Positions 6,575 through 57,137 of a stretch of DNA of 64,000 bases are shown in pieces. Origin of the DNA: Mariannaea sp. PMI_226 (Eukaryota > Ascomycota > Sordariomycetes > Hypocreales > Nectriaceae); NCBI GenBank assembly GCA_024336345.1, contig JANFOG010000003.1, forward strand, positions 1,122,501 through 1,186,500, written 5' to 3'. The notes beneath the pieces are model-generated. The model did not search any database, was not told the origin of the DNA, and worked only from the letters and a program-made list of their open reading frames with translations. Within the stretch, counting starts at the first letter, position 1; the number at the start of each line of letters is the position of its first letter. The position numbers and the translations under genes were made by a program.

Positions 6575-9500
6575 CTAGCTCAATTCAACCCTCATCTCTT
6601 GGTCTATCGCATCAAAATCCCAGCTATCCTCGATTATTACATCTCGAAAGATATTCTTGTCCTCTTCAGTCCAAACACGATAATCTTTGAGCAATTTAGC
6701 TGCAGCATGGTGACCTTCTGCTTCGGCAAACTTTACCGCCCGTAAATATTGGATTTGCCCTTGCCCGGTAGTGCTTACCTTTGAAATAAGGAGAAGCTGG
6801 ATAATATCGATACGTCCATGTTCTCCTGCAGCCTCAAGTGCTGTTCGTCCATGAATCGAAGCACCAGGCGCATTGCAGTCGGCTCCACTCTCGATCAAAA
6901 GTTTCACCGCCCCAATGAAGCCAGATGTGACAGCATACTGTAACGCGGTTGCTCCTTGAAATTTCCAGGCTTTGGCATCCACATTCGCGCCCAAGTTGAT
7001 CAGTAATCCCATTAGCGCTATGTCGCCTTTTTGTGAAGCTGCTTGAATTGCCGTTCTTCTAATCTTATAGTCTTCTTCAGCCGAGAAAGCATTGACATTT
7101 ATACGTTGCTCGAGCATGAAGTTTACAACCTTGTCCATATCCTTTTCAATAGCAATAGGAAGCAATGAAGGCCAGTCATCATCTTTTGTGGCAACAACAC
7201 TGGGCTCTTGAAGCAACTTCATTGTTGCCGCCTCGTTATTGGAATCAATCGTGCAATAAAGGTCTTCAGGGAGCAGTTGATGTCCACATCCGGATAGCAA
7301 ACCGACCATCCCCTCTTGTTTGCCCAGGAACGCTACCCCAATCAGAGAGCACCCGATTCGCATCAAATTTTGGGACGCGCGATAACGGACTCTGTGTGAT
7401 ATCCATGAAGAATGTTGACGTATTGCAAGGAACCTCAAATCCTGAGTAAAATGCCGCACATCAGAAGAAAAGGTCAAACCATGGTCTACCAAAAGTGACA
7501 CCAGTGCTTGATTTCCATCGTAGACGGACTTGGCCAGGGCAATGCTTTCGCATGAGGCGCTGTGATGCCAGTAGCCAGCATATTTCTCTCTGCGACTGAG
7601 TAGCTGCGATAAGAGCGAAATGTCTTTTGTTTCCAAGGCAAGTTGTGTGGCCTCCACAAGAGCCTTCGGGTAGTATGTCCTGGTATCCAAGTTGAGAATA
7701 TGATTTGCGGTTGCTAGCTTTCGAGATCCTATCGCCTTGGCGAGCATATCTTCACGTTGGGGTGACTCTTTGTCTGGGATTTCCAGACCAAACTCAAGAA
7801 TCTGGATGCAGATGTTGTCGCTGCCATAGAAGAGTGCGTAATCCAGGTCTCGTATGCTGAATCCAGCTCCTGCCTCCAGGAGGAGCTTGGAAGCTTGCTC
7901 TTCATGTTCCAAAAATGAACAAGTCAGTGCAGTGCCCTCAAGCCAGATGGACCTGCCCCCCACTCGAACAAAGGGCCTTTTCGACATGCGACGGTTGATC
8001 TCTGCACCATGTGCTATCAATAGCTGGAGAATCTCCACCTCACCGAAGTACGCAGCGATATGCAGCGCGGACGGAGAATTTGGATCTCTCGGAGCCGGTT
8101 TCATTCCCGCATCCAGTAGCAGCTTGCACAAAGTATAGTTCCCCTGAGACACGGCCTCCCATAAAGGATTGGGGGGGGTATAGTCTGTGTACCACCAATC
8201 AGTCCCCCCCAAGTTCAGCTGAGGCGGTTTGCTTAATGGATTCCACTCTAACAACATGGCGTCTATCAAATCTTGGTGACCACATTGAATTGCGCAACCC
8301 AACACCCAACTCGTGTACATGAGTCCTCTGGACTCCTTGAGTTGTTGAAGGTGGCTAAGTAAGGGGGCTGCGATGTCGAGATTGAAATTGAGTCTTTCAT
8401 TATATATAGATATCGCGCTGATTGCAAGTAGAATTCGCTCCTCCGTGACGATGAGATCAGGGTGTTGTAGTACCCAGTCAATAATTTTTGGCTTGAATTT
8501 TGAATTCCGATTGTGCAAGACTGCTGCTTGTATTGAACAAATCGGAAGCGAATGGTTGACATTTGAGACATCGTTAATATTAGCACCATGCCTAAGGAGG
8601 AATTTGGTTAAACAGACATCGGACTGCATCAATGAGATGTGCATTGGAAGGATGGTCCATAGCACTGCCCCCTTTACTGTAGCTATTTCGGTTTGAATCT
8701 GTCTTCTGGTCCACGCGCGTATCTCGAATCCTGACTCGTTCAACCTTCTGAGCAGCGTAACTCGAGATAATCGAACTGCAGCTGCAAAAATACGGCCAGC
8801 AAGAGCCTGTGCGGTTGGCTCTGGTAATGAAGCCAAATTGCCAAGCAGCACCTGCATGCTCAAGAGGTATTCAACCACATGGAGGATAAGTTTGTCCATT
8901 TCGAGAAAATCAAGGACGAAGGGGATGTTATTTGAGGTCAAGTAAAGAAGACATTCCAATGCACAAGTGACAGAAACAGTATCCCCAAGTTGGCCTGTGA
9001 TAGCTTGCGAACGAGCCAAATGTTGATTCTCGAAACTTTCGGGCATCACACCAATTAGGTATTGATAAACAGCTGCATACTGAATCTGAAGTGATTGATT
9101 GGACTTGGGTGGCTGCGACTGCGCTCCAAGCAATAGAGCCGGGATTTGCAGAATCTCAGTCATTTGGGAAAAGTCGCAACAGTGATGCTGCTTCATGATC
9201 AAGTCAAATACTGATGTGGTTAGCATCAATAACAAGCGTTAGACTGCCTAATTATTCTTACCAGGTATGCACCAGTTACTTTGAAATCTTGTCCAAGGCA
9301 GCGACTCTGGCCACGGTATGAAAGCAGCTGGAATACAGGTTGAAACTCTTGGGCTAATTTGCATGAGGTGTGGCGTGGCATCGTGAGGAGAGGTCGCTCT
9401 TGGACTTCCAGTATCAGTCATGTCTAGCTGAAGTTCGAACGAGTTGATATTTCCTGAAAAAGATCCGAGTTGTTGATAACAATAATTTGTCGGCGACCGC

Positions 9501-11744: not shown

Positions 11745-13565
11745 ATGCTACGCGGAACAGACGACGACATGGCGGACACCATGAATATTTTGGAACAGGC
11801 TCTTGCAGTCATTCGAAATGCTAGTCTTCAGTACCCAGACGAACAACTTCTCGAATGCTTCTTGCAAGATTCGATAGACTCTGCAACTGCCGCTCGCTAT
11901 CTGCTTCAACGATGCTCCGCTGGAAGAAATGACCTTGGTTTGATACCGCTGCTGTCCGATTGGAAACAATTGATCGCTTCTTGTATGGGCTATCAGATTA
12001 ATCCCACACAAGCGCCGTGCTCACAATAAAAGTCAGGTACGAGTTCCCGCCCCACCGAAGGCCTGACAGAGACGTTATCGCCAATATCAAAAGAAGGGAT
12101 GGCGGCAAGTGTTGCATCACCGGCTTGAAAAGCTCCTTCATTGATCCGCTGGTCGTCACTCCTATACTTCCAATGACCAGGGCAGTCAAGAAAGTAGGTA
12201 CAGCTTTCTTCGTCCTTGTCTTAATCTGGTTCCAGCTAAGCAGATACTGGTTTAGTCTTTGCATGAAATGCTTAGTGTCTACATCGGTCCCGGATTGCAG
12301 CAGCGAATACTCTCCAATGACGCTTCTCTGAATGATCACCAGAATCATTGGCTTGTCCGCAAATCTGCGGCAATGGCGTTGTCGCAAGGTTTTTTTCAGT
12401 TCATATTCAGCAAAGGCTCTGATGTGAGTATCTGACTGCCTCTCGTGGCATGCATACTCTCATAATAAAAGATTGTCAAGCCATTCTCGCTTACAAAGAT
12501 CCAGTATCGTATAGCTGCAGTCAGAATTGGAGGTCCAGCATGGCCTTCCATTCTAGACAATATGTCAATGCTTCAGCGTGGCTGTTTCACAGACCACTCG
12601 GCTTCTGGCATGGAAACTCCGGATGTTACATTGTTGCAAGTCATATCGCAATTTGCAAAACCCATACGGTGGAGATTGCAGATAAACAGCCACTACCAGC
12701 CACCAACATGCGATCCTCCTCACTTTGGCGCCTCCTCTCAGAGTATGCCGCTGCGACTTTCACAACAATGTGCTGCCTGGTACCAGCCACCCTCCGCATA
12801 CAAGTCTACCGCTGCTTGGGGTTCCTGGGAGCACACTTGTACGGGCCATCCTCCAGCTTAAAGGTTCAACGACTTCCATTTGGTATGTATCTTAAAACAG
12901 CAAGCGCAAATGAGCACCATGGTTTGGCCAATGATTATGGTGCTTTACAGCTCATACGACGCTATAGTCATATAACTGTCCCTCGCCCATTAGACCTCGT
13001 ATCAAACACAGGCACGTCTTACCTGCTGACTTCCCGAGTTCCGGGCCTCCGTCTGGGAATGTGCATTGATACACTTAGTGAGAACGAGGTATATACATTG
13101 GTTTGTGACTTGCAGAGATGTCTTGGGGAGCTGCGGATGATACCAAAGGACGTCAACCCAAATTATGCCATCAGCAATACCCTCGGTAAGCCGTGTTATG
13201 ATTACCGAATTATCGCGGGTTTAGACTATGACGAGGAGCAGGGAGATTTCATTGGACCATTCGTGGACGAGGAGGAGTTTAACAAGATCCTCCAAATTGG
13301 CGCATTGCCTAGTGTTTCTCATTGCAGTGGACATCAAATCGTCTTCACACACGCAGATTTGAATATGCGAAACGTCCTCATCCATAACGGCAGGCTTTCA
13401 GGGATCGTGGACTGGGAAAACTCAGGATGGTTTCCGGAGTATTGGGATTATACCAAGGCGTATTATATCACCAAGCTCCAGAAGCGGTGGTTAAAGATTA
13501 TCGATGAAGTCTTTAAACAGTTTGGAGATTTTGAGAGTGAACTAGCAACCGAACGCCAGCTCTAG
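11745..13565 (+). CDS. HNH-like plus APH-type phosphotransferase fusion, with a frameshift
   Basis: Four exons fit: 11745-12016, 12070-12193, 12256-12423 and 12505-13565. The second carries an HNH_2-like start (IANIKRRDGGKCCITG), but the stretch where an AHIVP-like motif is usual reads VTPILP, so the histidine is missing. The third ends in NHWLVRKSAAMALSQGFF, typical of this fungal architecture. The last holds an aminoglycoside-phosphotransferase-like domain with VQRLPFGMYLK, the catalytic HADLNMRNVLI and the metal site IVDWENSG. In exon 4 the frame must change near 12668-12672: the first part (RIAAVRIGGPAW, METPD, FAKPIRW) and the second part (from VEIADK on) are in different frames, and no plausible intron lies between. 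One base or four bases appear lost, so it may be a pseudogene or contain a consensus error. Substrate is unknown. Confidence 0.65.
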
Positions 13566-18467: not shown

Positions 18468-19964
18468 TTAGAACAGCGCCGGCTTCCACCCACCAGCAAC
18501 GCCCCGAGCGACACAAAAGACAACACAGGAGGCCAGATAAAATCCTCCTGCAAAAATAATGAGATTTTGATATGGGTCAGCACCCTCCTTTTCCAAAAGG
18601 GCTCCAGCGATGGGAATTCCGATCAGGGCACCAAAACTGGCGATAAAGTATGCAATACCGTTAGATTTTCCGTAGTCCTCAATCCGACACACCTTTGATA
18701 TGCAGACTGGTGACAAGCTGATAGCTGCCCCTGACCAGAATCCAAAAAGCACAGTGAATGACATGACTTTCTCTTCACTCCCGTCCGTTGTAAACCAGAG
18801 GCCCAAGATCAAGGCTGCGCATACCATGGCCGCAACGCACATGGTATTGAACGCCCCAAATCGATCAGCCGTGTAGCCCGGCAGAATTCGGCCTGGTATA
18901 GCTCCTACATTTAGCAAGATATTGAGAAGGTAGGCTTTGTCAGGGCTTATTCCATAGGAAATAGCATATGATGATATGTATGAGTAAGGAATGAAAACCG
19001 CAAACTCGATAAAGAAGATTGCCAAGACAGTCACACCGAACTTGGTTTCCTTAAGGAGCTTGAAGTCGATCGAGACCTTGGCTGCTTTGTTGTTAGGCAA
19101 TCGTTTTCTCAAACATATGCTTGCAATAACAAAGAGAGCGGCAGATATGAAGGCAATGATACGAATCGCCCAAGGGAAACCAAGACGAGGTGCAAGATAC
19201 AGGACGAGAAGGGGGAAGATGACGCCACCCAGCCCGCCTGCTGTGCATGCTACACCAGTTGCAAAGGCGCGACGCTTGTAAAACCAATGGCCAATGGCGG
19301 ATATGGCCGGATTGAAAAGCAGTGACGCAGATATGCCGCCGCACAGCCCAAACGCTAAGAGGAACTGGTAATATTCTGCACATGGATTAGCTTGTGTGAT
19401 GGTGAGACAGGGAACCGTCAGCGGCGAACTTACCCTTAGATAGACTCAAGAAGATAAGAGATGCAACAAGGCCAATGGAACCGGGGATGATCAAAATCTT
19501 GATGTCATGAGCATCAAAAATAGGGCCTGCAGCGTATGTTGTAAGCCATATGTGATACTTAGAATAGAACATGCACCTAGTGGCTTGGGGGTAAAAAACA
19601 CTAACCAACTTGTCCACCACAAGCCGTGATGCAGAAGGCGTAGCAGCTGAAGATCCACCCCAACTGGCTTTCGGATATTCCGTGGAGTTCGTGTTCTGAA
19701 ACCCAAGCTTGCAGCACAGCTATTGTGTTGAGAAGGCCTAAAGGAGGTAACATGGCACACCACGCGCCGAGCACAACCAACCAGGCTTGTAGCCCTCCAT
19801 CCGGATAATCGAGGTCATCGCTCGAGATGTCAACTTGAAACTGTCCATCAGAGGTTTGATCATGTGAGTAGATAGAGACGAAGTTAAAATGTGAACTCAC
19901 CTTGCTCAATTGCAAGTGGTTCAGCCTGGCGAAACGCCTCGGGCTTGTCAGCAGAATCCGCCAT
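18468..19964 (-). CDS. MFS transporter, monocarboxylate-transporter type (430 aa)
   Basis: Four exons on the minus strand close in phase: 19964-19901, 19833-19606, 19526-19434 and 19375-18468. The short hydrophilic N-terminus is followed by VDISSDDLDYPDGGLQAWLVV, the DGG-x-AW entry typical of fungal monocarboxylate-type MFS proteins. Hydrophobic segments suggest about 12 membrane spans, with FGLCGGISASLLFNPAI, WFYKRRAFATG between the halves' early helices, and GRILPGYTADRFG in the second half. The family moves carboxylates or related small molecules across the plasma membrane, usually with protons; the substrate cannot be read from sequence. Neighbours give no clear pathway. All exons are intact and I see no missing helix. 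Confidence 0.88.
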
Positions 19965-35550: not shown

Positions 35551-37350
35551 CTAGACTGGCCTCCTGAAAGGGTGCGCTTCAGTGTTGAACACGTACTTAT
35601 CCAAACTGATCAAACTTGGTTCACTAAACACAAGATAGAAGTATTTGAGAGTCTCGCTCATCCAAAATGACTCCATCGAGTCCATAGCAGCGGGCTTTTC
35701 CCTTGGCATGGTTACATCCCATACAGCAGTATTGGCCAAGCTTGTCGCAGTCGTTGCATTAATCGCTTCGAACATGTCCCACGCCGAGTCGGCAAGCTCC
35801 GCTCGACCCGTCACGCGGTACAGGATGAAGACGCTTTCGATGGCCTCGGGTCGCAGAATATACCGACGATCGGGAATCTTAGTGAAGCCTTTTGGGAGGT
35901 GCTCTTCTCGGATGATCACATCAGCCTCCGTGTCCTCACCATTTTCACTCTTAGCACGTTGGAGAATGGCTTGTTTCCAACTGTTCTCATCCCAAGTGCA
36001 TTTTTGCACCGATGGACAGGGCAGCATATGGAATTTCTCTGGCATGATACCATGAGGAAATGCATTGTAGGCGTAGATGCAGCCATTGGTGAGTTTACTG
36101 GCAATTGTTACGTCTTCATCGCGGCCAAACAACCTCCCGCCTAATGCCATCGCCCCACCTAAGAAACAAACAAGGTGCTGCCCTTGAGGATCCAGCTTTA
36201 TCCTAGAGTCCGGCTCTGTATTTTTGCTATCCGTGTGGACAGTTCCAGATACAAGAATATCCTCGTCTGTAGGCGTCATAGGTCGGAAAAAGTTGTGCTT
36301 AACCGCTGTGTCCATCGCCTTTGTATACATCTCCTCATACATAGGCAACTGTCTACCAAGCAACGCCGCCATTTTAGGCATGTACTCATATATAGAGTCA
36401 GCCATGGCACCAAGGGTAAATGTTGATCCCGAGTTGAACACCAGTTCCTTAGCATTCACACTGAGCGGCCAAAGGCCAGGCAATTCGGTTGTGTCCTGTT
36501 GGGGGGCCATCAAGTCGGCAATGTGCTGGACAGCAGAGAACCACTTGGAGTCCCCAGTCAGCTGCGAAAGGCGTGTAAATTCCAGAGAGAGGCTACCGAT
36601 CTCAGCCAGCAAGACTCCTGCCCTCGCTTCTTGTCGTTCCTGCCGCATTGCGGCGTGGATGTCCCACCGTGTGATGGGCATTCTATTGGGTGTATCGAAG
36701 GCCTTGTAAAGCATGTTGCCCACCTGAACTGCCTTCTTCAGCAGGCGATGATCCTGGCTAAGGTCGAAAGCTGAGAGAAGAGCCCCCAAGTGTCGAATAG
36801 TGGTCTCAAATGTGTTAATCTCTTGCAGTTCTGTTTTTGAAAAGTCGATGACTTCGATAGCATCCACTGCCTCAGCAAACTCGGCCTTGAAATCCATTAT
36901 CCACAGCGTGTCAAGAGCATCGATGAGGCTCGCGGCCCAGCCGCCAAAGGGATTCCTGCGTTCACCAGAGAGAGGCTTTAATTCATCCCAACCCCATGCG
37001 TTCTCACGGTAAGAAGTCCATGACTTGAGAAACGTCCTCCTAACAGCGTCCTGGCGCGATTGTCGCACCTGACGCGCAGAATTCGTCTCGGGAGCAAAGC
37101 TTGCCTGGACCTTGGGGAAGCTTCGAGCAGTACCAGTGGGAAGGGTCTGGATAGAGGTAGGTGGGAAATCCGTGGCGATAGTCCTCCAAATATCGGAGTC
37201 GTCGCTGCTGGCCTGCCAGAGCGAAGGGTCGACAGGGCGGTTAATGTACTGACTGATGTTCTCCGGTTGATGACTGGAGGTCCAGAGATAAATCGCGATG
37301 ATGGAGAGTAGAGCGCCCGCCCAGACGAATGACCTAATGCGCGGCAACAT
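35551..37350 (-). CDS. class I alpha-1,2-mannosidase, GH47 (599 aa)
   Basis: A single exon. Residues 7-24 form a signal anchor (SFVWAGALLSIIAIYLW), giving a type II membrane protein with the catalytic domain in the ER or Golgi lumen. GH47 features include FLKSWTSYRENAWGWDEL near residue 105, NPFGGWAASLIDALDTLWIM, the acidic INTFETTIRHLGALLSAF, LVCFLGGAMALGGRLFG, YILRPEAIESVFILYRVTG and the C-terminal FNTEAHPF, whose Thr usually binds the calcium ion. The enzyme trims mannose from N-glycans on secretory proteins. The length is normal for the fungal family. It is convergent with the acyltransferase. Confidence 0.93.
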   Translation of the reverse strand: MLPRIRSFVWAGALLSIIAIYLWTSSHQPENISQYINRPVDPSLWQASSDDSDIWRTIATDFPPTSIQTLPTGTARSFPKVQASFAPETNSARQVRQSRQDAVRRTFLKSWTSYRENAWGWDELKPLSGERRNPFGGWAASLIDALDTLWIMDFKAEFAEAVDAIEVIDFSKTELQEINTFETTIRHLGALLSAFDLSQDHRLLKKAVQVGNMLYKAFDTPNRMPITRWDIHAAMRQERQEARAGVLLAEIGSLSLEFTRLSQLTGDSKWFSAVQHIADLMAPQQDTTELPGLWPLSVNAKELVFNSGSTFTLGAMADSIYEYMPKMAALLGRQLPMYEEMYTKAMDTAVKHNFFRPMTPTDEDILVSGTVHTDSKNTEPDSRIKLDPQGQHLVCFLGGAMALGGRLFGRDEDVTIASKLTNGCIYAYNAFPHGIMPEKFHMLPCPSVQKCTWDENSWKQAILQRAKSENGEDTEADVIIREEHLPKGFTKIPDRRYILRPEAIESVFILYRVTGRAELADSAWDMFEAINATTATSLANTAVWDVTMPREKPAAMDSMESFWMSETLKYFYLVFSEPSLISLDKYVFNTEAHPFRRPV

Positions 37351-37839
37351 TCTGAAGGCTACAAAATGTAGACGGATGGGTATAGGGAATTAGCTCACTT
37401 GGCATCGAAGTCGGAAACGAATGAGTGGAATTGACGAATATAAACTAGATGGAGTAAGCAGCCTCGTGGGGTTTGGTTGTGAGACATGGTCGCCGGCCCC
37501 CCCCCTGTCACCAGCGCCAAACACAAGTGCGGGATTGGCTGATCAGTCAGCAGCCTTTCACAGCCAACACACGGTACCAAATTCATATTAAAAATAGATC
37601 TATAGTTGGAATTTTGCAGTTCTCGTTCAGTATTTTGAAAGAACTAATATCGCCAAGGCGCTGAGATTAGGAAAGCGTCATGCACGGCGTCAGGTCGACA
37701 GGCCGCGCTCGTTTGCCCGCGCTTCGTCGAGACCCTCGTCGGTTATTTTGTTTTGCCATCTTGCTGTCTCGTGTCTTCCTTGAAAGCATTCATTCGTCTT
37801 CTTGCATTGTAGCTTCCTCTTGTTCTGAAGGCTCGCACT
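37351..37839. other. divergent promoter region
   Basis: Shared upstream region of the mannosidase (left) and the Cys-rich membrane protein (right). A C-rich run occurs near 37497-37505. No specific site was assigned. Confidence 0.4.
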
Positions 37840-47150: not shown

Positions 47151-48762
47151 TGGTATGAAGCCTCAGCCGCGCCGCCTCTCTTGTCCAAGTTTAGAGATAT
47201 TTGCTAACCCTAATATCAAGTACCAACTGTCGTAGCCGTCGCGTCAAATGCGACGAAAAGAAACCAATCTGTGGGAACTGTTCCCGCAAGGGCGTTTCTT
47301 GCAGCCAGACGGAGCGTTTTGTGCATGATCAACGATCAATTGGAACTCGTCCTCCGCGCTCGGGTCCGAACGCCGATCTTGACTTTGGACCTTCGGCACT
47401 GGCGTTGGCTGGAACAGCTCAGCCTGAAACTACGTACGACGCATTGCAACTAGCGCAGACTGCACCACGATTTGAAGGCCCTAGCCAATCATCCCAGGCT
47501 GGTACGCAAGTTCTCAGGTTGGGCAAGCAGACGGCTGACCTGGTGCAACGCTACCAGAATGGTATTGGGACATGGCTCGATGTGCTGGATCATCAAGTAA
47601 ACTATACTCGGCACGTTGTCAGGATTGCCTTCTGCTCAAGATTAGTTCTCTACTCAATCTGCGCGCTCACGGCAAAACAGTTGAGTTTGGCTAGCATTGA
47701 GTCTGAAAGGCCAGACTGGGAGGCTATAGCTGCTCGCTACTATGGCGAGAGTCTTGGACTCCTGATCAATCACCTCAACCAGCCGGACAATAGCCATGAA
47801 ATTGAACTCACAGCTGCGATTGCTCTATGCAGCTATGAGCTACTAGACCATCCAGGTGTCGACTACAAAAGACATTTGGATGGCGCACGATCCCTGATAC
47901 AGTCACGCAAGCCGTCCAAGACTTGGACGGAGCTTGAAAAGGCAAGTTTCTGGGTCTTTGCTCGGCAAGATGTCGCTATGGCTCTGGTGAATGAGAGCCC
48001 GACGCTGATTCTCCCTGACGAATGGAGGCCCCTTCTTCCAACCAAACTGATTGAAGAAGATGCCCTGGGGAACAAGGTCTTGTGGCTCTTGGCTCAAATA
48101 ATTGAACTAAGATTTGGATCCAGCGCTTCCACAGTCAATGAATCAGAATGGTGCCGTATTCAAGATCTACGGCGAGATCTTGATCAGTGGTTCACTAGTC
48201 TCCCGCCAACCTACCATGGTATCCCGATTTCGGGGACAGAAGAATCAGGACTCGTTGATATCCTGCTTACCATGACCTCAACAAGTAAGCAAAAAACTCG
48301 GTGATCTGTTCGGCAAGCTCTTGGATTGACTTGCTACATTCTAGTGACGGGACTTCTCTACTATCACTTGGCTAGGATGCTTCTCCTCGAGCACTGGTTG
48401 CTGAAGTTTGACGGACTCAAGTTCGTGTCCAATGAGGTGCCAAGATTTGACCGCCAATACTTGGAGTCTCAGCTGCAAACATTCGCTCAATCCACAATGA
48501 ATATCTCTTTCTCTTCTGGCTTACCACATAGTGTGTGGCCTGTCGCCGTAAACCCCCTATTTTATGGTAGGTCACCCATAAAATGAACACTAGTCGTGTG
48601 AGATAGTAGTAACAGATTCTAGCTGCAAGATATGCTCCCCAATATGACCAGAAACTGAGAATTTGGGCATTTTTGCATAACATTGAAGAAGAAGTTGGAT
48701 TTCATACAAAGAGTAGAGTTCTTCAATCACAACGCGAACGTTGTAATCAACCAACAGCCTAG
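47151..48762 (+). CDS. Zn2Cys6 transcription factor with fungal-specific regulatory domain (at least 474 aa, start unresolved)
   Basis: Exons 47221-48284, 48345-48566 and 48623-48762 close in phase. The first cysteine of the zinc cluster is completed across an intron: GGATG at 47148-47152 joins T at 47221, giving CTNCRSRRVKC, then CGNCSRKGVSC, the CX2CX6CX6CX2CX6C pattern. The initiator ATG is further upstream, in a short exon I could not place because an in-frame TAA precedes the acceptor GCTAACAG at 47131-47138. The rest resembles the Fungal_trans_2 type: YALVLY-like helices, YYGESLGLLINHL, GVDYKRHLDGARSLI and LLEHWLLKFDG, with AFLHNIEEEVGFHTKSRVL at the end. It is nuclear and DNA-binding. 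Its 3' end is 66 bp from the convergent P450, so the two may share a locus. Confidence 0.8.
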
Positions 48763-48828: not shown

Positions 48829-50492
48829 TCACCCCTCGTTGACGGCCATGGCTCTGCGTTGGATGGTCAAAGGCATTGCACTGGGCCAGAGATTGAATCC
48901 CTCCTCCCGCTTCAATTCCCACCCTGGACCCGGCAGATTCAGTTCATATCGAGTAACGAGGGTCGCTACAAGCACACTTTGTTCTATGTAACTAATGTTT
49001 CGACCAATGCAGCCTCGAGCGCCAGTGCTGAATGGGATGAATGAAGCCTGCGCTTCCTTGGCCCCTACTTCAAACCATCTCTCTGGGCGAAATTCTTCAG
49101 GACTGGGAAAGAAAGCGACATTCCGGTGCGCAGTGTATGCGGGGACTGCTACAGTCGTATTTCCAGGGATCCAATGTCCATCAATGGACATGCCCTCCGG
49201 GGGCGTCTTTCGATGCAATCCGAATGCGACTGGAGGTGAGAGTCTCAGAGACTCATCCAAGCATGCTCGGAGGTATGGAAGGTTCTTGACTGTAGCGTAA
49301 GGGGGTATTCCATCGCCTCGAATCCCCGCTTCCTTTAATTCTTGCCTAAGTCGAGCCAGTGCGGCAGGCGTACGGAGGAGGTAGTACATGATATGTGTCA
49401 AAGCGATGGCGGTCGTATCAGATCCTGCATCCACTATGATGAGTTAGTATAGATTTCCAGCGCGCCACGGAATCTTGGGTCTCGCGTACTAAAGACAGTA
49501 ACCTCCGCAGCAACCTCATCAACGTCGAGATTTCTGGCGTTACCCTCCTTGTCCGCTAGAAGACACTCGACAAGGTCGTCTAGCTTCTCTCCGTTGTGGA
49601 ATCTTTCAATGCGCTTACGCGTCATTTGTCGGACCAACTCGTCGAAGTCCTCGCCAAACTTCCATTGTGTTCGGAAGAAACCAGGCATCTTCTCCAGGGT
49701 GAAGCGCAAGAATCGGAACCAAGTGGGTGCCCAGGAGACAGTCGACGTCGCTCGTCGCCCAGCATGAAGGGACTTTATGTAATTGAATGGTTTCTCGGCG
49801 CCAGCAGGAGTCTTGATTGTGACGCAGTCGTCTCCACGGTCCAGGCAGCCAAGCGGATGACTGAGGGCAATATCCAACACAGCATCGACAGTGAAGAGGT
49901 TGGACCATTTACGAAAGTCGACAATTGCTGGATCGCTGTTATAGGTTGTTGAGGCATCGTCGCAAATTCGATCGAACTGGGCGATAATTCTTTGAGTCTT
50001 GTCCACAACTTTGAACTCCCACTGCACCAGGTTTCTCGTTGCAAAAGCATGGGATAGAAGACGACGCTTGCGAGCGTGATCACCCTTGTCCACAGAGTCG
50101 AGGATGCTCATGCGCGGACCAGCAATGGCCACGTACGAGTCTCCTTTAAAGCAGGGACTAGCATGACCATAGATGGCCTTGATAGCAGCCGGAGTAGAGA
50201 AGGACAGGGAGTTTGGCCCAACACGCACAACGGGATGTACCTTGTGCACCTCGTGGAGCGTGCGAGAGCGAAATCCGCGAGATCTCTCATAGATGTAGCC
50301 GATATTAGTGATACCTGCAATGCAGTTGAGGTTTGGGAAACGGCGAAATTCTTTGGGGTCCTTTAGGTATGTGATGATGGGCTCAAGGATCATGTAAGTG
50401 GCCCCCAAGCCAAGTAAAATGAAGACGAGTAAAAGCGACAACATTGGGTAATACTGAGGGTGGAAGCGATTGGTATTGATAATTTCAAACAA
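48829..50492 (-). CDS. cytochrome P450 monooxygenase (535 aa)
   Basis: Two exons, 50492-49490 and 49433-48829, with a 56-nt intron that splits the codon just before the I-helix. An N-terminal membrane anchor lies at residues 17-40 (MLSLLLVFILLGLGATYMIL). Key motifs are MDAGSDTTAIAL (I-helix oxygen-binding), ESLRLSP (ExxR), FRPERWF, and the haem-binding loop FSTGARGCIGRN with its Cys ligand. Length is normal for a microsomal fungal P450. It is expected at the ER with an NADPH reductase partner. The substrate and CYP family cannot be named by eye. It is convergent with the Zn2Cys6 regulator. Confidence 0.93.
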
Positions 50493-51323
50493 AAAGACAG
50501 CCCCGAAAATATGCTTGCAGAATTCAAGGGAATCCTAGCCTTCTTATATTTCCCCGAGATGGTCATCTTCCCGTTTTGAAAGGTGTTACTCAACTACGTC
50601 AAAGACGCTCCTATCACAGCTGACTGCGATCGCCCCAAAACAGTCAAGGATCCGAGGTTGCGCTTCGTATACCAAACATGGTTTAGCTTCATATCGATCC
50701 TCGTCCCCAATTGAGGCAACTAGGCGTTAGCTTGGCAAGTTTGAGTCTTCGACGCAGCAACAACTGCAGTATCGTGGCCAATACCAGTCCAAATTCGACA
50801 AGCTATCGCGGTGTTGTATTCTACCTTCTTAACGCAATCCAGCAAGGTGACCAAGCTTAAATCCCATGGACAGGTTTAGTTGCAGGCTGGACTTGCAGGC
50901 GGAGTAATCGATTATCACGAGGTCAGGTATGCTGAGTGGCTCTCCATGTTATACGAGCTTCGAAAGGGGAGAGCGGTTAATCTTCCTGTGTAGTATATTA
51001 TTGCAGGCCATTTTAGACAGTACTGCGAATCTTCTAAACAGGCTCACTCTCCCGCTGGTGGAGGAGCTTCATATCCTCACTCGGTGCTATGCTGCTAAGC
51101 CAGGTTGGAGACCGGTCTTAGAGGTCTATGGAGTGGAAAAACTTTACTTTCTTGAGCCCCTTATTGTTCGTTATTGGAATAGCAGGCAATGCCGGATTGC
51201 GTATTTTCATTTAGTAGTGTCAAATAGCGGTCAACACCAAAGGTGCTGTGCGGTGAAGAGATCGCCGGCAGCTATGACTGTGTAAGTAAAACACAACCTA
51301 TAACAACAGGAACAGTGAGACCT

Positions 51324-51896: not shown

Positions 51897-54800
51897 CTAT
51901 GAAATAGAGTTGCAATGGCTGCTACCGTGGTAATCTCCAAACCTGAGGACTAATAATCTCCCAGAATTGCATCCGAATACAACAGTCGACCCATCTGTCG
52001 CAAAGTCTGAAGACCGAAAACCAATTGGCAGCCAGAGTAGATTGGATCCATTCAATGTAATCCAACATTCATTTTTGCTCAATGCATAGCCAGGAAACTG
52101 AATAATATCCGAAATTCCTTGAGCAATAGAGTGGGCCACATGACGGAACTCTTTTAGACTTGTAAAGTTCCTATTGCATCCGAATGATATGAACGGGTAG
52201 ACTTCTGAAGCTTCTCCAATTTCTATCGTCTGGATGCATGCACCAGTATCGGCACGGCAGAGAAAGATCTCCCGCTTCGAATGATAGATGGCGAGGACGC
52301 AGTTATCTTTACTGAACGCTAATCCTTGAACCATGTTTAATCCTGGAACCCCGGTGTTGATCAGGCTATGCGTACACCAGATGCATTGGCCAGTATTCAC
52401 ATTCCACATTGAGATGAGAGGGTTTGAAAATCCCCAAAAACAGCTCGCGATAAAGCAAGAATCATTTGAGAAAGCGAGCAACCGGCAGCAGCCACCTATA
52501 TCAGACAAATTAAGCCCAATATTGAGTATCCTAAAGTCGCAACCCGTGTTGACGCGCCAGATCTGGATTGCACGACAATCACCAGACGCGAGAAGGCAAT
52601 CGTCCTGTGAAAAGGCAATGGAAGACATCTCCTTTTCTCGACACTTGAAGACACGTACCAGTTTTAAGGTATCAATCTTCCATAACCCAAGAAAATAGTC
52701 GCTCTTCTGGGCACAGATGGCTGAACCATCATTAGAGAAGGCGCACTGAGAGTGCAAGCGTATGCTGCTTTTGATGGTTCCCAGGCCCCTACCTTCTTCG
52801 ATGTTCCAGAGCCTGAGAGTTTTACCATTAGAACGATTGAAGTGCGCCACCTTTGAACTATCAAGCGATAACCTAAGCCCGAAATTTGGCTCAAAAAACT
52901 TAGGCTGGGACCAGAAATCTGCCCTTGCGTTGATATCGTAGCGCCAAAGCCGCACACTGCCGGAGTCAGCCGATGCAAGGAGCGGTCTAAGACGTGAAAA
53001 TGACAAGTTTCGACATCTGTGGTGAAAAACGTGGATGCATTCGTCGGTATCGGTGCGCCAAAGCTGAATGCACGTCTCTAGCCGTGCCGCAAGAACCTGA
53101 TTGTCGTGAGAGAACAGGGCCGCAGGATTCGAGAACGCTTCATGAGAAAAGTCGCGTGGAGGCGCAGAAGCCTCCGTATTTGAAGTTTCTAGCACAGGTA
53201 AAAGAATAGATACTCCTGTATCAGCACGATAGAGCAAAACTGAATCCGGTCCTGGTCCTGTAGAGTGTGATGCGATAAGTGAGGAGTTGGGTGAAATAAC
53301 CAGGGACCGGACAGGAGTTATATTTCCATAGTCAATGCCGCGTGTGCACATCCCGGAATTGATTTGCTAGAGCCAAATTGTGCCATCGGGAACGGCCCAT
53401 GCAATTACTCAGGCGTCGTCCGATATTGATACTCTTGACTCCGTCAAATCAAACATGGTCCTTCTTCTCGTTTTTATCAAGGGTATGGAGAAATGGTGCG
53501 CTTTGGTGCACTCGCGTTCATTTAATCGCCATATATAACCTGGGACTAGTCGGTCCCTGGGCTCTGCTCTCTGGCTCGACACTAAGAAGAGAGTATTGTC
53601 GTTCGAGAAGGTAGCATCAATTGTATCGATGTGCTTGATGATAAGCGTTTGAAGTATCTCTCCGGTTTCTACTCTGTAAAGCTGAATCAATTTTTCGGAA
53701 GTAGGTGCAAGCTGGTAGAATGCAGCAATGAGCGAGGAGTCATGGGATAACTTTACTCCAACGCATTCTAGGCCCCGACTTTGACTGTCATTGTCCATCT
53801 GAGACTTCGAACTTTCATCAAGCACTGATTTAAGTACACGCACACATTCACCCGTGTCCTTTCGCCACAGTCGAATCTCTCGTTCGTCGGACGACACAAC
53901 AAGAGAAGAATGCTTTGACAAATACACCGAGTTCACGGGGTTTTTATGGCCCTCCAGTTGTTTGACACATGCGCCTGTGTCCACCAGCGAAAGCTGAACT
54001 GCATTCTTGCCCAAGAGTGAAACAACAAACGAGCCATCATGCGAGAGTGCCACTGGTGCGCGCCCCAGGTCCCCGAAACTTTTGAAGGCCAGAAAGCAAG
54101 AGTCCCAGCTCTCATCCAGGCCAGACTTGACCGCTACCCACTGGGGCATGCTCTTCTGGAACAAAGTCTTAATGATGCTCATTTGTGGTGCAAAAATGAG
54201 GACGGAAGAGTATAGCTGGAGTGGTGCAGCGCTAATGATAGAGATATTGTACTGTACAATCCGAATGGCGTCTGCTAACATCGCTGTCAATGTATTGTTG
54301 CCTCTCGCCTAAATATTGGAACGTCAGCTAACTCTTGGGGTATCCGAAACATCTAGGGGTTGCGTACTATACTGAATACTTCTAATCTTCTAATCATCAA
54401 CAGACCATCCACGGTTCGTCGCATTATGCTCAAAGCTTCAATCCAATGTAGGAAGTGACACTGCAAAAACTCGGTGACGAAATCAAGGTCGTTGATCTCG
54501 TCTCTGGCGCCTTCGAGATGAGTGACCCAGTACATACAGGCATATTGAACTTCAGCCGGAATATAGCTGTCTACTTGAGCTTGATCAACTGTTGAACCCT
54601 CATTTCGAGTTAATCTGAGACAGCACATGTCCTCTCGGAGAAAGGTTTCCATAACTCGAAGACAGTTCGTCGCTATGGTGTTCTGAATTCGCATCTCATC
54701 CAACCAAAACTCACTGGTCGATCTCTTCTTGGAGTCTAATAGGAAGTCTCTAAAAGATAGATGTAGTAATCGTACGGGTGAGGTGGCTAAGTTTGGGACC

Positions 54801-57137
54801 TGGAAAACCGAATGCAGGCCACTCAATAGGTTTGAGATTGACCTTTTTTCAATGTTGAGTAACTTCGCCAACACGGTAATTGAAAGAGGATCCTCAAGAA
54901 GGATAATGGGGCCGACAATGTCCTTGAACTTCCCAAGAACCCGAGCACGTTTCTCGTCATCCAGTCCCTTGACGAGATTGTTGAGTACGGGAAGGTATGT
55001 GGCATCGATTGGGGATTTTCGTCTCGTATGCTACTGCATTACTTCCCGGAGCAGGTCTTCAGGATCGCCACACCTACGATCATCAAGAAACCGGCAGATG
55101 GTAGCAGCAAAGATAAACAGTGGCGTTGCCATTTCCACGAGTCTCTCCAGGCATGACTCGCCAGGCCACTCATTTCCGAGCCAGGCTTCAGCATTGTCCT
55201 GAACTAAGCAATTGTACCCACGACGGATTTCCTGTACCCGAAAATTGAAGTACAGGCGCAAATCTCGCTCAATAAGAGGTGTCGAGACTTTATGAAGGAT
55301 AATGTCCTGATATACCTCTTTGATTGACGAAAAGCCGCGGCGAGCGGCTAGTTCAGGACGACTTGTAATGAAAAATTTCAAGACGGAATTCCGCGAGAGA
55401 GCCAGGAGAGAAATGATGAGTTTGATGTCATCATCATGCTCAATCTCATCAAGAGCATCCATCAAGATTATAACCGGCTTATCGCCTCGTGCTGCTGATT
55501 TGACTGCAGTTATTGGCCGTAAAACTAGATGGTGAAACTGGGGCTGCGGTCCCTTGTCCACGATAACAGAATCGGTCTCGATCGACTTTTTGATCTCAGT
55601 TGCTATGTCCGGATATTTTTTGGCAATTTGCCTAGATACGGTGGTGAACCACCTTGAAATACTCCCTCTATCGCCCTCGCCTCTTTTGAAGAAGAAATTG
55701 GCTCCCAAGCAGCCAAGCTTGTCGAAATCCAGGCATAGAGTTCGAGAAATTGTTGACTTTCCAGTGCCTGCCATGCCGTTCAACCAGAGAATAGATTTTG
55801 CGTCCGGTTGTTGGGCCCAATTATGGATCTCGCCGAGGAGCTCAACGCGGGTTCCCGACAAACACTTAGGATTGGAACCTTCCTCGTACGAATCATAGCA
55901 GGCCCCCTTTGCAACAGGGAGGCGATCCAAAGCCGATTTCAGCGTGTCGTTATGTATGGCGTCTCTGAGCCAATAAGTGTTAGCAATTTTGAAAAGTTGC
56001 CAATCGCTATGGAAATTAATACCGAAGGCCTCGAAGCTCCTCCGTGTTATCCTCTACCATAGTGTGGATATTCTGCACGTCTTCAGTTACTGTGACGACT
56101 CAGTCAGCAGAGGCCATACTCGCAATAATGAGAGTATGTAACTAACTAGATCTAAGCACCTGAGCTATCTCTGGTGTGGCATTCAGCTGCCAGGTTGGGA
56201 CGTAGCTGAGAAGCTCCTTGGCATAGGCAGCGGCTGTGGCGGATGCATATCGCTGCCAGCGGTCATTCTTGTGCGAGTCAGCATAGTCGCAGATACCTCT
56301 AATGATGAGGCAGGGGAATTGTTGCATCAATCCAGCAGCCTCCATCTCTACACATAGACACTGCTGTCCAACAATTTCCGCCACGCTGTCCCTGAGTTTT
56401 GCATCCTTTACAAGCATATTACCGGAAGCAATAACGCCGTAATGAATCTCTGGATTATTTGACGATCTTGGGGTACGAGTAATCTCGTTGGATGCGTCGC
56501 AGCCCTGACAAGAATTATATCCTGCGTGAACGTAGCTAGGCATGAATAGCCGGTCATGCTCAGCTCCCTGATACATCCAGGCTTCGGGGTTTTGAGGCCT
56601 CAACGCATGGAGACCTTGAAGAATCTTTGGAATAATGGTACCCGTAATCTCATGCTCCGATTGTAAGTTCCCCAAGGCGCTCAAGAGCACCGTAGGAGGG
56701 GCGTTGAGAGAGCCTTTTCTTTCCCAACCTTGTCCTGCTTTTTCTGTTCCCAGGTCATACTGAACGACCCCACCTGTCGTGCCTTCGGGTTGACTTACAA
56801 CAACATCACCAAGCCGAAGGTCAACATGTCGGGTAACGCCGCCGCCAATGCCGACCAGCAAGCCAACCCGGACATGGGGTAGGGAAGCCGCCAGGTTGGA
56901 CACTGTTGTCGCAGCAGAGACGATTCCATACTGTCCAGCGGGAAGCCCAGCAATGACGATGTTATGCTCTCCCATACGTCCCCATGTATATGAATTCGTG
57001 TCTGATGGGTGCTGTTCGAAGCTGCTGTGGGCAGCATGGCGCTCGTCAAGCAGCATCGTCGCCGCTGCCCGTTCGATGGGGAGGGCGGCTATCCACCCTA
57101 TGGTATAGAGCTCGACACTGGGCAAAGATTCGCGCAT
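51897..57137 (-). pseudogene. NLR-type gene: PNP/UDP-phosphorylase, NACHT, WD40; three in-frame stops
   Basis: Exons 57137-56147, 56089-56023, 55964-54380 and 54308-51897 close in phase and total 5055 nt (1684 aa if read through). Domains in order: phosphorylase-like (YTIGWIAALPIERAAA, LLVGIGGGV, EMEAAGLMQQFPCLIIRG), a short linker, NACHT (Walker A GMAGTGKST, Walker B IILMDALDEIEH, sensor FFITSRPE), a helical section with LLHLSFRDFLLD, then two WD40 blocks. In-frame stops lie at 55031-55033 (TAG, after the NACHT), 53409-53411 (TGA) and 53367-53369 (TAG), the last where a WD repeat would carry Trp. No indels break the frame. This architecture is known for fungal NLRs in nonself recognition. 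The ATG at 57137 is preferred to 57257. A truncated PNP-NACHT protein could still be made. Confidence 0.85.

Follow-up and report, generated by a model that had tools for sequence, protein, structure and literature searches.

In a 64,000-nucleotide stretch (the window; positions 1,122,501 to 1,186,500 of contig JANFOG010000003.1) of the genome of Mariannaea sp. PMI_226, a fungus of the Nectriaceae (Hypocreales), a minus-strand reading frame extends from an ATG at 57137 to a terminal TAG ending at 51897. It joins an N-terminal effector domain of the PNP (nucleoside phosphorylase-like) type, a NACHT domain and C-terminal WD40 repeats, the PNP-NACHT-WD40 architecture of fungal NOD-like receptors (NLRs), with three in-frame stop codons interrupting it. 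We consider it likely that this NLR-type gene was full length until recently and was lost by ordinary nonsense point mutations, without repeat-induced point mutation (RIP). As far as sequence can show, the loss is real, and damaged NLR genes belonging to large families are already known. What is offered here is mostly a correction: an earlier, sequence-only reading of this DNA had taken the fact that every stop lies one transition away from a sense codon as a sign of RIP-like decay, and that fact carries no information. In a genome with one NLR relic that seems to have undergone RIP, simple point mutations can suffice to destroy another NLR gene. In addition, the public gene model hides the broken gene behind a probable false intron, and losses hidden in this way are of consequence when fungal NLR repertoires are counted.

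Gene structure and domain content

Depending on the 5' splice site chosen for intron 3, the coding sequence measures 5055 nt (upstream site) or 5067 nt and 1688 codons (the site used by the deposited protein BGZ63DRAFT_439426, P0001). That protein represents this same locus, being identical at 1167 of 1167 residues when the gene is spliced with an extra 51-nt intron. All three introns of our model are GT...AG introns and each contains a CTGAC or CTAAC motif. The gene comprises the following features:

56147..57137, minus strand: exon 1, PNP_UDP_1 (nucleoside phosphorylase-like) N-terminal domain, within P0001
56090..56146, minus strand: intron 1, 57 nt, GTTAGT..CTGAC..ACAG, junctions as in P0001
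56023..56089, minus strand: exon 2, short linker, junctions as in P0001
55965..56022, minus strand: intron 2, 58 nt, GTATTA..CTAAC..TCAG, junctions as in P0001
54368..55964, minus strand: exon 3, NACHT / NPHP3_N and arm region
55023..55073, minus strand: 51-nt intron of the deposited model, over stop 1
55031..55033, minus strand: stop 1, TAG, codon 664
54309..54367 (starting at 54379 if the upstream 5' splice site is used), minus strand: intron 3, 59 nt, CTGAC motif, junctions as in P0001
51897..54308, minus strand: exon 4, WD40 repeats to the C-terminus
53409..53411, minus strand: stop 2, TGA, codon 1185, within a WD repeat, end of the deposited protein
53367..53369, minus strand: stop 3, TAG, codon 1199, conserved Trp column of a WD repeat

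A frameshift near 56050 was considered and rejected, as the frame change there is intron 2, with junctions shared with P0001, so that no indel is needed in the reading frame. The four-exon PNP-NACHT-WD40 frame of 5055 coding nt, with three in-frame stops and no indel, had been described from the sequence alone and is confirmed by the sequence, its splicing and the P0001 junctions.

The frame is not a chance one, because Pfam domains were found in four of the five pieces scanned: PNP_UDP_1 (E 1.3e-8), NPHP3_N (1e-27), NACHT (5e-7) and WD40 (3.5e-8 and 1.7e-8). The fifth piece, 54356-55030, had no Pfam match. Homologues align to both sides of every in-frame stop, and beyond stop 3 the frame is open for a further 489 codons. 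The stretches GMAGTGKST and ILMDALDE, which we take to be the Walker A and Walker B motifs, are intact. Read by the standard code, the gene cannot yield a full-length receptor, since three in-frame stops stand in the way, and we therefore file it as a broken member of the NLR family.

Homologues were taken as the best 120 of 2841 hits among 7988 scored candidates. Column comparisons used 119 of these, P0001 being excluded as the same locus; it is also the sole Mariannaea-named protein among the best 120. The sequence-only reading had suggested that other strains may carry an intact allele, as is typical of nonself-recognition polymorphism; these best 120 homologues include no second Mariannaea allele. 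The closest other protein among the matches listed is P0002 from Ilyonectria (59% identity over 62% of the query), and the top C-terminal relative by E-value is P0121 (29% identity). Four Hypocreales PNP-NACHT-WD40 proteins, P0003 to P0006, share the domain order and NACHT region of the Mariannaea gene, with identities of 41, 42, 42 and 39% over 99, 87, 89 and 99% of the query, respectively. In contrast to the Mariannaea gene with its three stops, these are annotated proteins without stops, known here by annotation only.

Origin of the stop codons

It is literally true that each stop is one C:G to T:A transition from sense, as the sequence-only reading had stressed. The point has no weight, because it holds for every stop codon: such a step from some sense codon reaches TAA, TAG and TGA alike. 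More can be learned from the homologues, which carry sense codons at all three stop columns, with the caveat that the register of WD repeats can slip in the alignment (gaps in 32 of 119 sequences at stop 2 and 38 of 119 at stop 3). The stop 1 column holds Y (51), F (18), H (14), S (8) and Q (7) among 118 homologues, with no Trp. The stop 2 column is variable (K 28, T 14, A 10, S 10, Q 8 and R 3 among 87 homologues) and Trp occurs in none of the 87. At stop 3 Trp is found in 78 of 81 homologues, which bears out the earlier expectation of a WD-repeat Trp at 53367-53369.

Weighting these columns by codon usage and transition bias (kappa), without extra CpG mutability, gives the probability that each stop arose through a C:G to T:A step. 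At kappa 2-4 this is 0.13-0.23 for stop 1, 0.28-0.44 for stop 2 and 1.00 for stop 3; at kappa 8 the values are 0.37, 0.61 and 1.00, respectively. Judged by the homologue columns, a transversion is thus the likelier origin of stop 1 and either kind of change could underlie stop 2; clear backing for a transition exists at stop 3 only, and it would suit any transition process, RIP or otherwise.

Test for repeat-induced point mutation

The explanation first put forward was silencing by RIP or some other form of cytosine deamination, and we regard it as very improbable. RIP would be expected to depress CA/TA and TG/TA and to lower GC within the gene. The gene has CA/TA 1.56, TG/TA 1.54 and GC 0.48, and block by block it matches the background, which averages CA/TA 1.46 (standard deviation (sd) 0.59), TG/TA 1.43 (sd 0.55) and GC 0.474 over 199 blocks of 750 bp. 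These blocks come from the window, gene included, and from nine stretches fetched around NLR paralogues, the stretch on contig C15 described below being excluded, and therefore do not form a random sample. The 750-bp flanks of the gene are moderately low (CA/TA 0.67 and 0.82, TG/TA 0.95 and 0.69, GC 0.42 and 0.41), lying 0.9 to 1.4 sd below the background mean; this could be counted in favour of RIP, and we take it as ordinary AT-rich intergenic DNA.

RIP also presupposes a duplicate with more than ~80% DNA identity. A 901-bp DNA probe of the gene matched only itself in the whole genome (42,196,573 bases in 25 contigs), a result that a lost copy, or a copy outside the probe, would escape. The nearest protein paralogues found are 64% identical in the PNP domain (67% for a 146-residue piece) and 58% in NACHT over 111 aa. 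The proposal of a multicopy NLR family holds at the level of protein, where the PNP piece finds 52 matches in the genome, among them its own locus and some whose stops may be introns. At the level of DNA the proposal is weaker, the probe having revealed no second copy.

What speaks for RIP is, in the gene itself, stop 3, whose most probable origin is a C:G to T:A step, together with stop 2 if an eightfold transition excess is assumed; at the lower kappa values stops 1 and 2 both argue against it. Elsewhere in the genome, a NACHT relic at C15:67000-69999, in an AT-rich stretch, has CA/TA 0.36, TG/TA 0.33 and GC 0.34, a strong RIP-like signature. DNA-methylase matches (PF00145) without stops are present at C2:671387-671962 and C19:910239-911114, C19 being the contig of the window; these two genes may be relatives of DIM-2 and RID. 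A published comparison is offered by the Podospora anserina pseudogenes NWDp1 and NWDp2, which are likewise broken members of a NACHT-WD NLR family. As far as the available part of that report shows (PMC1805685), they differ from the Mariannaea gene, with its three stops and normal ratios, in having many nonsense codons and, as a result of RIP, depressed CA/TA and TG/TA ratios in NACHT. In the RIP-inactivated NWDp1 the NACHT values are 0.1 and 0.12, with outer flanks of up to 0.76 and 1.03, against a higher Podospora genome background of ~2.2 (PMC1805685).

Extent of decay

Loss by plain nonsense mutation would have removed the capacity to make a full-length receptor. Ribosomes would stop at codon 664, so that the arm and WD40 sensor would not be made; the transcript would probably be a target of nonsense-mediated decay, and constraint on the later domains may have been relaxed. 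Changes unique to the gene were counted relative to those unique to P0002 and averaged over eight outgroups picked by us. The gene to P0002 counts were 30.1 to 17.9 in the linker-NACHT segment, 23.8 to 12.4 in the arm, 18.2 to 8.4 in WD 889-1100 and 16.6 to 13.4 in PNP. Departures at columns at least 80% conserved numbered 11 of 137 (PNP), 19 of 108 (NACHT), 6 of 67 (arm), 23 of 58 (first WD part) and 20 of 63 (last WD part), and the share of homologues scoring as high was 9, 5, 39, 3 and 13%, respectively. For NACHT and the first WD part only 3-5% of homologues were as high, at columns at least 80% and at least 90% conserved. At columns at least 95% conserved there were 1 of 80, 2 of 59, 3 of 35, 1 of 14 and 1 of 6 departures in the same order, with 58, 23, 3, 18 and 15% of homologues as high. 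Taken together, this suggests, without proving it, relaxed constraint on the later domains.

To yield three nonsense codons, approximately 71-85 neutral substitutions would be needed, or 1.4-1.7% per site, and three stops without a frameshift fit a recent loss. Other broken relatives in the genome lend further support to this view. Several points weigh on the other side. The reading is drawn from the sequence of one genome. The single-segment chi-square values are modest (PNP 0.35, linker-NACHT 3.1, arm 3.6, WD40 3.7), and faster change could equally be explained by diversifying selection. The conservation classes do not agree throughout: at 80% and 90% the arm lies within the ordinary range (39% and 14% of homologues as high) and PNP stands at 9% and 31%, whereas the 95% class singles out the arm alone, NACHT and both WD parts being unremarkable. 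The chance of seeing no frameshift, computed with assumed indel to substitution ratios and an assumed frameshift fraction of 0.8, is 0.21-0.26 at a ratio of 0.03, 0.03-0.04 at 0.1 and <0.01 at 0.2 under a negative-binomial model, and 0.13-0.18, 0.001-0.003 and lower still under a Poisson model. Missing frameshifts would accordingly be odd if indels are common and unremarkable if they are rare.

Deposited gene model and alternative explanations

In the deposited model the 51-nt intron skips stop 1 and translation ends at the TGA of stop 2. This intron is probably false: homologues are coding across the 51 nt, which lack the CTRAY branch motif found in the three other introns. Eight in-frame GT-AG candidates of 45-120 nt span stop 1. 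Stops 2 and 3 can be removed jointly by one such candidate only, of 66 nt (53432-53367), for which the TAG of stop 3 would serve as the 3' splice site. No CTRAY motif is present in any of these nine candidate introns over the stops; several candidates are expected by chance, and they are therefore weak evidence either way. Nonetheless, a functional shortened product could be made, either as a 663-residue PNP-NACHT protein terminated by stop 1 or as the 1167 residues of the deposited protein, which run up to stop 2 once the 51 nt are spliced out; the intron of the deposited model could be read as a sign of it. We think this unlikely. The intact GMAGTGKST and ILMDALDE stretches and the small excess of change in the PNP exon are compatible with it. 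Moreover, other fungi have annotated homologues with PNP and NACHT and no WD40 (P0049, P0084, a partial record, and P0105, their domain content taken from precomputed Pfam lists), on account of which a 663-residue product is still conceivable. Against a functional short form, stop 2 falls inside a WD repeat with so many codons still open beyond stop 3, and the linker-NACHT and arm segments change faster than in P0002. There is scarcely any likelihood that the stops are assembly errors. They are read from the assembly alone, but they would require three separate base substitutions to be wrong in a 25-contig assembly. The deposited protein is built around the same stops, although it apparently derives from the same assembly and so provides no independent check.

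A different possibility is that the gene is conditional and depends on sexual-stage adenosine-to-inosine (A-to-I) editing, which in the fruiting bodies of Fusarium graminearum turns UAG stops such as those of PUK1 into UGG. The available parts of two reports describe in-gene UAG stops edited to UGG in fruiting bodies of that fungus (PMC4817773, PMC11156358), and the first of them describes 69 edited genes that annotation had masked with false introns (PMC4817773). The annotated intron over stop 1 follows this pattern, an in-frame UAG hidden by a predicted intron being common to PUK1-type genes and the Mariannaea gene. Two of the three stops are UAG, with stop 3 at a Trp column; U at -1 of the A is a feature of any UAG. 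In a kinase gene of the same genome, conserved kinase blocks are separated by a tandem TAGTAG whose two A residues have hairpin-loop probabilities of 0.77 and 0.86. We nevertheless hold this account to be highly improbable for the NLR gene. PUK1-type genes have UAG at every premature stop, whereas codon 1185 here is TGA, with a G at -1, a context seen in 4.98% of edited sites (PMC4817773). Stop 1, unlike PUK1-type sites, has no Trp among the 118 homologues and a low loop probability (0.11, below the mean of 0.35 for 81 TAA/TAG control sites of the gene). The loop probability of stop 2 is 0.02, and that of stop 3 (0.71) is just below the upper quartile of the controls (0.73) and not unusual. 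Editing would therefore not result in a full-length protein. As an account of all three stops, A-to-I editing is ruled out by the UGA at stop 2 and the lack of Trp in homologues at stops 1 and 2. A literature search, as far as its listings go, brought up no publication linking A-to-I editing with NLR or NACHT genes. A narrower variant, in which stop 1 alone is bypassed in fruiting bodies by editing or by splicing of 55073-55023, giving PNP-NACHT and half of the WD40 region in the sexual stage only, has a very slim chance of being correct; if true, it would make this a stage-gated NLR.

A tandem TAG kinase gene

A PUK1-type site pattern was found twice in the whole genome and its reversed control four times, so that a pattern match alone proves nothing. 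One match is the kinase gene mentioned above (C12:4135775-4135791, minus strand), in which two tandem in-frame TAG codons are arranged as has been published for PUK1. Pkinase is matched by two pieces that lie before the stops (E 4.6e-26 for one and, below the curated cut-off, 1.7e-4 for the other), and the first upstream piece and the 32-residue downstream piece have no Pfam match. Two TGA codons and one more TAG further upstream in the frame may be introns. We take the gene to be PUK1-like on these features, and it raises the possibility that Mariannaea edits mRNA in its sexual stage. By eye, the second pattern match has no kinase-like frame.

NLR family and neighbouring genes

The NLR family would have suffered several losses in this genome, the one described here among them: besides open genes it includes one relic with RIP-type decay and one that decayed in its absence. 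The latter, at C19:3983997-3985298, shows normal ratios (CA/TA 1.33, TG/TA 1.31) although its three matched pieces contain nine stops, for which reason NLR loss without RIP seems to occur elsewhere in the genome. A PNP gene at C22:1660126-1662003 has pieces 67% and 54-58% identical to the gene, stops that may represent an unspliced intron, and a NACHT match of only 24%.

An Rfam scan of the window returned nothing at gathering scores. Pfam matches were obtained for seven of the ten other window frames scanned:

35557-37389, minus strand: GH47
6581-9238, minus strand: ankyrin repeats
18474-19445, minus strand: MFS
12423-13562, plus strand: APH-type phosphotransferase
47195-48301, plus strand: Zn-cluster transcription factor
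49440-50534, minus strand: P450
63035-64000, minus strand: DUF7223

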